Shown: piece by piece, positions 13,813 through 25,541 of the stretch
Layout: the number at the start of each line of letters is the position of its first letter
Position numbering within the stretch: the stretch's first letter is position 1
Origin: Anaerolinea sp.
GTDB taxonomy: Bacteria > Chloroflexota > Anaerolineae > Aggregatilineales > Aggregatilineaceae
Length of the DNA stretch: 36,796 nucleotides
NCBI GenBank assembly: GCA_020725705.1
Contig: DYEN01000353.1
Coordinates: 1 to 36,796, forward strand
Direction: 5' to 3'
Notes under the pieces: generated by a model
Databases searched by the model: none
The model's input: the letters and a program-made list of their open reading frames with translations, nothing else
Told to the model about the DNA's origin: nothing
Made by a program: the position numbers and the translations under genes

Positions 13813-14856
13813 ATGGCAGCAAACGCTCGCGTCAACGAAATCGGCCTCAGCCGCAACGATTACAAGGGCGGGGTCTCGACCCTGTGCCAGGGCTGCGGCC
13901 ACAACTCTATCGCCAACCAGATCATCGCCGTCGCCTACGAGATGTCGCTCGATCCGCACCAGATCATCAAGCTGAGCGGCATCGGCTGCTCCAGCAAGTC
14001 GCCGGCCTATTTCCTCAACCGCTCGCATGGCTTCAACGGGCTGCACGGACGTATGCCCGCTCTGGCGACGGGTGCGACGACCGTCAACCGCAGCCTGATC
14101 GCGATCGGCGTCAGCGGCGACGGCGACACCGGCAGCATCGGTCTGGGCCAGTTCAAGCATATGGTCCGCCGCAACGTGCCGATCGTCTATATCGTGGAGA
14201 ACAACGGCGTCTATGGCCTGACCAAAGGGCAGTTCTCGGCCACGGCGGATTACGGCCAGGAACTGAAATACGCCGGTGTGAACGAACTGCCACCGATCGA
14301 TATCTGCCTGGAGGCGCTGGCAGCGGACGCGTCGTTTGTGGCGCGCTCGTTCGCGGGCGATTCCAAGCAGGTTCGCGAGCTGCTCAAGGCCGCGATCGCC
14401 CACCGGGGCACGGCTGTGCTGGACATCATCAGCCCGTGCGTGACGTTCAACAACCACGAAGACTCGACCAAGAGCTATGCGTACGGCAAGGCCAAAGAAG
14501 AGCCGCTGCACGACATCACCTTCATCCCGTTCTACGAGCCGATCGAGATCGAGGATCAGGAACCGGGGCAGGTGCGCGCGGTGAAGCTCTACGACGGCTC
14601 GCATCTGATGCTCAAGGCGCTCGATCCCGCCAAGCACGACCCGACCGACCGGATGGCGGCCTTCCGCCTGCTGGAAGAGGCGCGCGAGCAGCAGCTGTTC
14701 ATCACCGGCCTGATCTATGTGGACGAGAACCGCGCCACGCTGCCGGAGATCAGCCGTCTGGTCGATACGCCGCTGGTGCACTTGCCGCCCGAAAAGCTGC
14801 GTCCGCCGCGCGAGGTGCTGGACGAGATCAACCGCCGCCTGACGTGCTGCAATTGA
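13813..14856 (+). CDS. korB: 2-oxoacid:ferredoxin oxidoreductase subunit beta
   Basis: 'LCQGCGHNSIANQIIAVAYEM', 'SGIGCSSKSPAYFLNRSHGFNGLHGRMPALATGA', 'GVSGDGDTGSIGLGQFKHMVRRNVPIVYIVENNGVYGLTKGQFS' (TPP-binding). Confidence 0.94.
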   Translation: MAANARVNEIGLSRNDYKGGVSTLCQGCGHNSIANQIIAVAYEMSLDPHQIIKLSGIGCSSKSPAYFLNRSHGFNGLHGRMPALATGATTVNRSLIAIGVSGDGDTGSIGLGQFKHMVRRNVPIVYIVENNGVYGLTKGQFSATADYGQELKYAGVNELPPIDICLEALAADASFVARSFAGDSKQVRELLKAAIAHRGTAVLDIISPCVTFNNHEDSTKSYAYGKAKEEPLHDITFIPFYEPIEIEDQEPGQVRAVKLYDGSHLMLKALDPAKHDPTDRMAAFRLLEEAREQQLFITGLIYVDENRATLPEISRLVDTPLVHLPPEKLRPPREVLDEINRRLTCCN

Positions 14857-15105
14857 GCTAAAAGCAGCGAAGGGCAGCTAAAAGCAGCGAAAGGCAGCGA
14901 GAAGCAGCTAGAAGCAGCTAGAGGCAGCTAGAAGCAGCGAAAAGCAGCGGGGAAGTGAACACAGTTCACGCCGCTGCTTTTTTTTGCTGTTCCTTGCTGC
15001 TCTTTGCTGTTCTTTGCTGTTCCTTGCTGCTCTTTGCTGTTCTTTGCTGTTTTTCGCTGCCTCTTGCTGTTCTTTGCTGTTCTTCGCTGCTCTTTGCCTG
15101 TCCTC
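14857..15105. repeat. Inverted decamer-array element, copy 1
   Basis: Left arm of 10-bp units (AAAGCAGCGA / GAAGCAGCTA / AAGGCAGCGA) 14857-14950; centre GCAGCGG-20 nt-CCGCTGC followed by T8; right arm of 10-bp units (TTTGCTGTTC / CTTGCTGCTC), about 12 copies, to about 15105. Confidence 0.9.
14941..14985 (+). terminator. Terminator-like hairpin at the centre of decamer array 1
   Basis: AAAGCAGCGG ggaa GTGAAC aca GTTCAC g CCGCTGCTTTTTTTT: nested stems followed by a T-tract. Confidence 0.7.
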
Positions 15106-15209: not shown

Positions 15210-16355
15210 GTGAACCTACACGAATATCAGTCGAAATTACGCTTCGCCGAATTCGGCATTCCCACCCCGCAGGGCAAAGTCGCCCACGATCCACAACAGG
15301 TCTATGAAATCGCCAAGGACCTCGGCAGGCCGGTGGTGGTCAAGGCCCAGGTGCTGACCGGCGGGCGCGGCAAGGCAGGTGGGGTTAAGCTGGCGCAGAC
15401 GCCCGAAGAGGCCCAGGCCCGCGCCGACGAGATCCTGGGGATGACCATCCGGGGGCACAAGGTGCTCAAGGTCCTGGTCGATCCGGCGGCTGAGATCAAA
15501 GCTGAGATCTATCTGGGGGTGACCAACGACCGCACCGCCCGCAAGCCGGTGATCATGGCGAGCGCCGAGGGTGGGATGGATATCGAAGAGGTCAACCGCG
15601 TCTCGCCGGAGAAGATCATCCGCGCGCATGTGGACCCTTTTCTCGGCCTGCGTGATTATCAGATTCGCAACCTGGCCTACGGAATTGACCTGCCGCGCGA
15701 CCTGTGGAAACAGTTTATGCACATCGCGCGGGCGCTCTATCGCTGCTATGTGGAAAGCGACGCGACGCTGGCCGAGATCAACCCGCTGATCATCGACGGC
15801 GAAGGTAATCTGCTGGCGGTCGATGGCAAGATGTCGATCGACGACAACGCGCTCTTCCGTCATCCGGACCTGGCCGAGATGCGCGATACCAGCGCCGAGC
15901 CGCCCGCCGAGACCGAGGCTCGCGCGGCGGGCCTGAGCTATGTCAAGCTGGACGGCGAGATCGGGTGCATGGTCAACGGTGCCGGGCTGGCGATGGCAAC
16001 CATGGATATGACGCAGCTTTTCGGCGGCTCGCCGGCGAACTTTCTCGATATTGGCGGCGGCGCGCGGGCGGACAAGGTCGCCGCTGCGCTGCGGATCATC
16101 GTCAGCGATCCGAATGTGAAAGCGATTCTGGTCAACATCTTTGGCGGCATCACGCGCGCCGACGAGGTCGCCCGCGGCATCCTTGAGGCGCTGGAAACGG
16201 TCAAGATCGATTTGCCGCTGGTGGTCCGGCTGGTGGGGACCAACGAGGAAGAAGCGCACCAGATCATGGCCGACGCGGCACTGCCCAACATGGTCAGCGC
16301 GACAAGTCTGGCGGATGCGGCGCAGAAAGCGGTTGCTGCCGCGCGTGGAATGTAA
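15210..16355 (+). CDS. sucC: Succinyl-CoA synthetase (ADP-forming) beta subunit
   Basis: GTG start preceded by GGAGG; '[21 protein letters not shown]...[18 protein letters not shown]...[20 protein letters not shown]'. Confidence 0.96.
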
Positions 16356-23792: not shown

Positions 23793-24368
23793 GTGAGCGA
23801 CGCTGGGTATATCCGAACGACACGCCCCGGAACGTCGCTGCGTCACTGGCTGTTTCTGGCCGGAGTCGCCGGTCTGGCGATCGCCGTCGATCAGGCCACC
23901 AAGGCGTATGTCGTGGCGCATCTGGCGCGCGGCGAGTCGTGGATGCCGGTGGAGTTCATCGCGCCCTATTTTCGCATCACCCACGTGCGCAATACCGGCG
24001 CGGCGTTCGGGGTTTTCCCAGGCGGCGGTCAGGTCTTCCTGGCGATCGCCGCCGTCATCTCGCTGCTGATCCTGTATTTCTATCGCCAGCTTCCGCGCGG
24101 GGCCTGGCCGGTGCGAACTGCCCTGGGATTGCAGTTGGGCGGGGCGCTGGGCAACGTCATCGACCGGCTGCGCCTGGATTTCGCGGTGATCGACTTTCTG
24201 CACGTGCCAGGCTTTCCGGTGTTCAACGTGGCCGATAGCTGCATCTCGATCGGGGTGGCACTGCTGGCGGTGGTGATGCTGCGCGAAGAATGGCGCGCGC
24301 GCCGCGCGGCAGGGGCCGGCGGCGAGTCGGCGCGCGGCGGCTCCCAGGAAAACACGCCGGTTCGTTGA
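23793..24368 (+). CDS. lspA: Lipoprotein signal peptidase II
   Basis: 'DQATKAYV', 'RNTGAAFGVF', 'LQLGGALGNVIDRLRLDFAVIDFLHV...FPVFNVADSCISIGVALL'. Confidence 0.96.
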   Translation: MSDAGYIRTTRPGTSLRHWLFLAGVAGLAIAVDQATKAYVVAHLARGESWMPVEFIAPYFRITHVRNTGAAFGVFPGGGQVFLAIAAVISLLILYFYRQLPRGAWPVRTALGLQLGGALGNVIDRLRLDFAVIDFLHVPGFPVFNVADSCISIGVALLAVVMLREEWRARRAAGAGGESARGGSQENTPVR

Positions 24369-24569
24369 AGCGAAGAACAGCGAAATACAGCTAAAAGCAG
24401 CCAAGAGCAGCGAAGAACGGCTACGAACAGCGAAGAGCAACAAGAAAGCAGCGGTATGAAGTGTCCTCGCTTCCCCGCTGCTTTTTGCTGTTGTATGGCT
24501 GCCTCTAGCTGCCTTTAGCTGTCTTTAGCTGTCTTTAGCTGCCTTTGGCTGCCTCTAGCTGCTTTTAGC
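24369..24569. repeat. Inverted decamer-array element, copy 2 (opposite orientation to copy 1)
   Basis: 10-bp units CGAAGAACAG / CTAAAAGCAG on the left; centre GCAGCGG-20 nt-CCGCTGC (24448-24481); 10-bp units GCCTTTAGCT / GTCTTTAGCT / GCCTCTAGCT on the right up to the AKR stop. Confidence 0.9.
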
Positions 24570-25541
24570 TTACCAAGCGTACGCTTCGGGCGCCGGGCCG
24601 CCGGGGCCGGGCCAGATCTCATCGAGGGCTTTGAGATCGTCGTCGCTCAGCTTGATCTCAAGCGCGCGCAGGCTGCCGGTGAGCTGCTCCATCGTGCGCG
24701 GGCCGATGATCGGCGCGGTGACCGCCGGCTGATGCAGCAGCCAGGCCAGCGCGACATCCGCGGGATGCTCACCTCGCTCCTTGCACCACGCTTCCCACTT
24801 TTCAAGCTGCGGGCGCAGCTTCTCGATCCGCTCCTGGACCCAGTCTTCTGTGCGGCGGCCTTCGGATGCTTTCGCCAGCGCGCCCGCCAGCACCCCGCCC
24901 GACAGCGGACTCCAGGGGATAATGCCCACGCCGTAGGCCTGGCAGGCCGGGATCACTTCCAGCTCGATGGTGCGCGCGGCGAGGTTGTAGAGGCTCTGCT
25001 CGGACACCAGCCCCATGAAATGGCGCTGTTTGGCAAGCTCGTTGGCCTGGACGATGTGCCAACCGGCGAAGTTGCTGCTGCCGACGTAGATGACCTTGCC
25101 TTCCTGCACAAGCTGCTCCATCGCCTGCCAGATTTCTTCCCAGGGCGTATTGCGGTCGATGTGATGCATCTGGTAGAGGTCGATGTAGTCGGTTTGCAGG
25201 CGCTTGAGGCTGCCTTCGCAGGCTTGCTTGATGTGCCGGGCCGAAAGCTTTGACTCGTTGGGCCAGTCACCCATCTTGCCGTAGACCTTGGTCGCCAGCA
25301 CAACCTTTTCGCGCCGACCGCCGCCCTGCGCCCACCAGCGCCCGATGATCTGCTCGGTAATGCCTTCGCCCTGTTTGCGCCCGTAGACGTTGGCCGTGTC
25401 GAAGAAGTTGATGCCCAGATCGAGGGCCTTGTCCATGATGGCGTACGAATCTGGCTCGGTGGTATAGGGGCCGAAGTTCATTGTCCCCAGGCACAGCCGG
25501 CTGACCTGCAAGCCCGTGCGTCCGAGATAGGTGTATTCCAT
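24570..25541 (-). CDS. Aldo/keto reductase
   Basis: 'MEYTYLGRTGLQVSRLCLGTMNFG', 'DKALDLGINFFDTANVYG', 'DLYQMHHIDRNTPWEEIWQAMEQLVQEGKVIYVGSSNFAGW'. Confidence 0.93.
   Translation of the reverse strand: MEYTYLGRTGLQVSRLCLGTMNFGPYTTEPDSYAIMDKALDLGINFFDTANVYGRKQGEGITEQIIGRWWAQGGGRREKVVLATKVYGKMGDWPNESKLSARHIKQACEGSLKRLQTDYIDLYQMHHIDRNTPWEEIWQAMEQLVQEGKVIYVGSSNFAGWHIVQANELAKQRHFMGLVSEQSLYNLAARTIELEVIPACQAYGVGIIPWSPLSGGVLAGALAKASEGRRTEDWVQERIEKLRPQLEKWEAWCKERGEHPADVALAWLLHQPAVTAPIIGPRTMEQLTGSLRALEIKLSDDDLKALDEIWPGPGGPAPEAYAW

Follow-up and report, generated by a model that had tools for sequence, protein, structure and literature searches.

Inverted decamer arrays in the 3' flanks of genes in one genus of Chloroflexota, with predicted terminator cores at korB and lspA

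Background

REPs are palindromic units or stem-loops of 20-40 bp with GTAG or CGTC tags, which favour the 3' flanks of genes and can supply stop codons (PMC3733652). Like REPs, BIMEs and REPINs, the decamer arrays described here are interspersed, intergenic and inverted overall, with a bias for gene 3' ends and a possible supply of stop codons (PMC3733652; PMC3116915). REPs, however, are tagged stem-loops with (GTAG) RAYT links, whereas decamer arms are untagged 10-bp tandem arrays of variable number and have no linked transposase. The uptake-signal terminators of Neisseria and Pasteurellaceae are comparable in using a genus-wide word of 9-11 nt, inverted pairs of which form terminators at gene ends; these are closely spaced pairs of a highly conserved word present in at least 1,000 copies (PMC1852404), in contrast to the phased arrays of the decamer family, for which no link to uptake is known.

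Two of the elements considered, those behind korB and lspA, display the GC hairpin, preceding A tract, following T tract and gene-end position of intrinsic (Rho-independent) bidirectional terminators. Their core is nevertheless wrapped in decamer arms on both sides, and many other elements lack a canonical core. Bacterial minisatellites (VNTRs) also consist of a tandem unit whose copy number varies between close relatives, but the decamer family forms two mirror-oriented arrays, frequently differing in subtype, at roughly 100 loci. No characterised family was matched: Rfam gave no hit at gathering score in the window (the whole stretch of 36,796 nucleotides analysed here), and no description of this repeat was found in the literature. 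The family looks new, as lineage-specific interspersed 3'-flank inverted repeats made of variable-number decamer arrays, though it resembles known palindromic (REP-like) repeats.

Elements present in the window

A sequence-only reading of the window had proposed a helically phased, inverted decamer array anchored on the korB stop codon. TRF and a position-weight detector agreed with it, delimiting 10 and 12 units which face inwards around a hairpin and together span positions 14854-15101 (Table 1). TRF placed the left arm at 14856-14948 (9.3 copies) and the right arm at 14975-15097 (12.3 copies). The twelve right-hand units of that reading were retained, while its estimate of about nine left-hand units was raised to 10 by the detector and its unit was redefined as RCAGCNRRRR. 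The central hairpin and T8 tract that it described were located at 14944-14985, with GCAGCGG at 14944-14950 separated by 20 nt from CCGCTGC at 14971-14977. The first array unit (TGAGCTAAAA) includes the korB TGA (14854-14856), and 108 bp of array-free, ordinary sequence separate the end of the element from the sucC start at 15210.

The convergent genes lspA and aldo/keto reductase have a second element between them, which runs from stop to stop (24367-24572) and leaves no part of the gap free. Gene models were those of a home-made codon-score caller.

Table 1. Coordinates of the two decamer elements of the window and of neighbouring genes
Feature	Position	Strand	Source
korB-like gene, 2-oxoacid:ferredoxin oxidoreductase beta	13813..14856	+	gene model; Pfam PF02775 (TPP_enzyme_C)
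korB element, left arm: 10 decamers RCAGCNRRRR, purine strand on +	14854..14953	+	detector
korB element, core hairpin GCAGCGG-N20-CCGCTGC, predicted bidirectional intrinsic terminator	14944..14977	+	
korB element, T8 tract after core hairpin	14978..14985	+	
korB element, right arm: 12 decamers of complementary flavour, purine strand on -	14981..15101	-	detector
sucC-like gene (ATP-grasp_2, Ligase_CoA), downstream of korB element	15210..16355	+	gene model; Pfam
Second element, left arm: 8 units, beginning at lspA stop (lspA 23793-24368)	24367..24446	+	
Second element, core hairpin GCAGCGG...CCGCTGC, then T5; TTTCTT on the other strand	24448..24481	+	
Second element, right arm: 10 units including part of core, ending at TAA of the convergent aldo/keto reductase gene (24570-25541, -)	24472..24572	-	

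Unit, arm subtypes and borders

The unit RCAGCNRRRR displayed CAGC at 90-97 % per position, purines elsewhere and a free position 6, these conservation figures being upper estimates because the detector favours this motif. Steps between consecutive units were exactly 10 bp in 928 out of 977 cases. All 54 simple two-arm elements (from a biased set of 79 elements) had the purine strand first, so that pyrimidines follow the hairpin on both strands; the reverse order, with the pyrimidine strand first, was encountered only in contigs taken to be N-masked.

Two arm subtypes could be distinguished, type I with a more frequent T at position 6 and A/G at position 10, type II with A/G at position 6 and GA at positions 9-10. 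Pairs of types I/II and I/I numbered 40 and 11, respectively, while II/II was never found (p = 2e-6, an optimistic value because orthologues were counted separately). Judged by eye, the left arm of the korB element belonged to type I and its right arm to type II. Arm type was linked neither to transcription direction (9 versus 8 in tandem elements) nor to local GC skew (p = 0.6).

The proximity to a stop codon noted at korB recurred throughout the family. Stop-facing borders lay at most 10 bp from a stop codon in 82 out of 89 cases, and in 64 out of 89 the stop fell within the array, most often at unit positions 6-8 (TAA/TAG), 1-3 (TGA/TAA) or 2-4 (TAG). In two genes, one nth-like and the other left of L127:3764, array sequence has taken the place of the stop and the final native codons. 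Start-facing borders (n = 43) displayed a median distance of 71 bp; 16 of them were within 27 bp, i.e. directly upstream of the expected ribosome-binding site, and about a third of the start-side borders leave no room for a promoter. An array between divergent genes was kept in two species directly upstream of a likely ribosome-binding site (L133:10112-10284 and L061:1996-2109), where a 5'-UTR role or a tolerated insertion is possible.

Distribution and genomic incidence

A 25-mer pattern composed of three GCAGC in 10-bp phase was found, with two mismatches or fewer, at 338 places in the genome versus none in the reversed control, which disposes of the concern that the two elements of the window might be the only copies. 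Exact matches amounted to 50 in the window's genome, 51 and 10 in G001 and G002 of the same genus, and one in G003 of the same family; this sole G003 match failed the position-weight detector. None was found in 37 further relatives, and 300 genomes of Chloroflexota gave one. The window's genome, a draft assembly in 590 contigs, has an estimated contamination of 6 %; the family was nevertheless found in three assemblies. Decamer arrays were found in quantity only in this one genus of Chloroflexota.

The arrays seen outside the genus, in scattered taxa, were all of single orientation. GCAGC arrays of 26-37 units in 10-bp phase, devoid of a mirror arm, were found in Neptuniibacter (L076), Paenibacillus (L059), Clostridiales (L084) and Massilia (L043). 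Apparent two-arm elements of L048, whose arms share the same coordinates, were rejected as a probable masked-N artefact, and decamers in L151, L159, L161 and L162 were dropped, these contigs, with whole-contig matches on both strands, being taken to be N-masked.

The detector was first run on about 0.5 Mb of the window's genome and about 0.37 Mb of G001, picked mostly for containing arrays. A census of 1.13 Mb contiguous sequence of G001, slightly biased in that its five long contigs were already known to hold at least one array, yielded 25 elements (about 22 per Mb) and no control match. Extrapolation from this census gives about 100 elements per genome, of which the korB element is one; the family is not korB-specific. 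Neighbour genes were convergent for 13 census elements, tandem for nine and divergent for three, against a background of 14 %, 71 % and 14 % of adjacent gene pairs, respectively, and no element lay inside a gene.

Relation to CRISPR and to REP-type mobile elements

The array had initially been set apart from both CRISPR and standard REPs, and this was confirmed here. Decamers are contiguous, with none of the unique spacers that separate CRISPR repeats. A miniature mobile element of REP/REPIN type, moved by a RAYT or another Y1 transposase, would account for arrays that are interspersed and palindromic overall and for the one copying event reported below; REPs too have been described as biased to 3' flanks and as donating stop codons (PMC3733652), and the intergenic, mainly convergent or tandem placement (22 out of 25) is that of REPs as well. 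The unit is nonetheless a 10-bp tandem repeat and not a fixed palindrome of 20-40 bp, the GTAG tag was present at only 10 out of 135 array ends, and none of the six PF01797 loci in G000-G003 had arrays within its flanks of ~1.5 kb. Mobility by RAYT or Y1 transposases is thereby largely refuted, and we regard it as very improbable. The PF01797 (Y1 transposase) domain was located inside an open frame of unusual length, about 1050-1090 codons, in G003 and in each of the three genomes of the genus (L259, L263, L260, L261).

Turnover between sister species

The sister genome G001 displayed an array at the orthologous site for 22 out of 23 elements, with flanks ~94 % identical. Unit number differed in 25 out of 30 orthologous arms, by three on average, and 7.6 % of the 14-mers were in common between orthologous arms versus 3.2 % between unrelated ones; the arms therefore turn over within themselves, as a self-expanding repeat, one of the roles first suggested for the korB array, would do. 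Subtype and orientation were retained where checked by eye. Tandem slippage within each arm probably underlies its lengthening and shortening.

G001 lacks element L127:4412-4549 and has 27 bp in its place; the element is a near-copy, in inverted orientation, of another one 420 bp away. Elements within 4 kb of each other had more 22-mers in common than distant ones (p = 1e-4). Both results indicate that local copying accounts for at least part of the spread of elements.

The CAGC and purine pattern stays constant across loci despite this fast turnover, which hints at possible selection on the unit itself. Two variants were observed in G002: L061:3190-3343, where the inner units of both arms read CAGA instead of CAGC, a motif drift parallel on two sides, and L040:1360-1560, where an orthologous array shows 13-bp units in one of its arms and both arms have amplified CAATA-type variants.

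Predicted terminator cores

At both korB (-17.4 kcal/mol, T8) and lspA (-19.7 kcal/mol, T5), a T tract came immediately after a GC-rich hairpin. In the korB core, the window's genome and G001 were set apart by a paired change (GTGAAC/GTTCAC to GTGAGC/GCTCGC) which left the stem intact, and the T tract was kept, as T8 in the former and T7 in the latter; the core stem of the lspA element was also preserved in G001. A hairpin with a T tail followed korB in 10 out of 15 family outgroups by scan, the other five displaying hairpins with short T runs by eye, whereas a GCAGC core with arrays was found at this place only in the window's genus.

The orthologous place of a pyruvate:ferredoxin-oxidoreductase-like gene also held a terminator in nine out of 13 family outgroups by scan, one weak. 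A general rule by which array sites carry a terminator in outgroups fits this gene and korB but was rejected, as no clear terminator was found at the orthologous places of ychF and of the gene left of L127:3764; arrays are thus not always on old terminators. At one locus, G002 had an array with a core hairpin where the window's genome has an ordinary hairpin (L124, ~2400).

According to a simple, uncalibrated terminator scan, 12 out of 42 sense strands of tandem elements and 16 out of 84 strands of convergent ones combined a tail score of at least 3.3 with a dG of -10 or lower. The strictest U-tail class (tail score of at least 4) comprised 4/42 sense, 0/42 antisense, 5/84 convergent and 0/14 divergent strands. 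The predicted terminators with the longest U tails were thus on the sense strand rather than the antisense strand, while the difference between these strands across all terminator scores was not significant (p = 0.37). Arrays abutting a ribosome-binding site were no less terminator-like than the rest. The canonical GC core plus T tract was present in a minority of elements only, those at korB and lspA included.

Pairing between arms

The korB element gave a predicted RNA fold of -134.7 kcal/mol (z = -7 against dinucleotide shuffles), and the giant stem of ~245 nt that had been described stands as a strong predicted fold. It was rejected as a selected structure. Watson-Crick complementarity between the arms of an element was only about 65 %, units of opposite arms displayed no in-register covariation (z about -0.4), and exact inverted 11-mers common to the arms of one element numbered 64, versus 177 for same-type arms of other elements (z = -3). 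This deficit would be consistent with removal of perfect palindromes. Selection for the giant stem is further unsupported because terminator likeness was equal in arrays that reach up to the next gene's ribosome-binding site, a place at which termination would do harm. As canonical cores are a minority, arms lack register covariation and such abutting arrays are equally terminator-like, the putative terminator function is assigned to the core where present, and the arms are probably mostly repeat-driven. Of the bidirectional terminator with a processive 3'-end structure initially envisaged, the predicted bidirectional terminator at the core thus remains, without the processive giant stem.

Predicted DNA curvature

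Curvature was predicted by a wedge model whose parameters were checked on a phased A-tract control. The predicted end-to-end/contour ratio was 0.89 for arms, versus 0.98 for the genome and 0.96 for 5-mer-permuted arrays, and 96 % of the arms were more bent than the genome's 5th percentile. The earlier suggestion of curved DNA is supported as a predicted property of the arrays, not as an established function.

Since arms are predicted to be bent, phased protein binding stays compatible with these data. A protein might read CAGC at each helical turn on one face of curved DNA and assemble inwards from both sides, forming a chromosome-organising or transcription-roadblock site at the ends of genes. 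The strict 10-bp spacing, the conserved CAGC with its free position 6, the strong predicted curvature and a motif that is constant although sequence turns over are in its favour. We consider such a scaffold improbable, as no candidate protein is known, phasing is 10.0 bp rather than 10.5 bp, the curvature depends on a wedge model and its parameters, the unit period may be simply inherited and the preference for 3' flanks would be left unexplained.

Discussion

The elements share the architecture (RCAGCNRRRR)n - centre - (complement)n, with arms facing inwards in gene 3' flanks. The reading we put forward, at about even odds, is that of a lineage-specific inverted decamer family driven by slippage, which fills gene 3' flanks around a bidirectional terminator that works at korB and lspA. 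Arms would lengthen and shorten by slippage, whole elements would now and then be copied to a nearby site, and arrays would take over non-essential sequence up to functional borders, namely the stop codon on the 3' side of a gene and the ribosome-binding site or promoter on the 5' side. At korB and lspA, the GC hairpin and T run would be the working part of an intrinsic terminator: nascent RNA would fold GCAGCGG...CCGCTGC, and RNA polymerase would pause on the U tract and release, in both directions. The arms may contribute redundant weak hairpin/U4 steps and would be mostly carried along.

A neutral or selfish repeat, deprived of any 3'-end function and maintained by slippage and local copying, selection only removing insertions that damage genes or promoters, is possible though less probable; the korB terminator would then be coincidental. 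Placement in the order convergent, tandem, divergent is what insertion tolerance predicts, and fast arm turnover, observed local copying, terminator likeness indifferent to context and the ordinary hairpin that the window's genome has at the site of the G002 array point the same way. Such a repeat should however be scattered through 3' flanks, yet its stop-facing borders nearly all touch a stop codon; it accounts poorly for positions preserved at orthologous sites, for a unit motif near-constant genus-wide and for a korB core hairpin conserved with a compensatory change.

Beyond the terminator-centred reading preferred here, it is conceivable, if doubtful, that the decamer is itself the recognised unit. 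A lineage-specific factor, either a protein or linked to RNA polymerase, would then read phased CAGC converging on the centre and punctuate gene 3' ends, the phased motif being selected for and perfect palindromes against. If true, this would represent a new kind of 3'-end punctuation drawn from a hypervariable repeat. Should the arrays act in termination, bidirectional terminators would here be iterated in an unusual architecture. At about 100 loci per genome, sister species agree in position and motif while nearly the entire sequence has been rewritten, so that the family offers a natural experiment on the way in which tandem repeats take over gene ends, write over stop codons and C-termini, and appear to avoid perfect palindromes.
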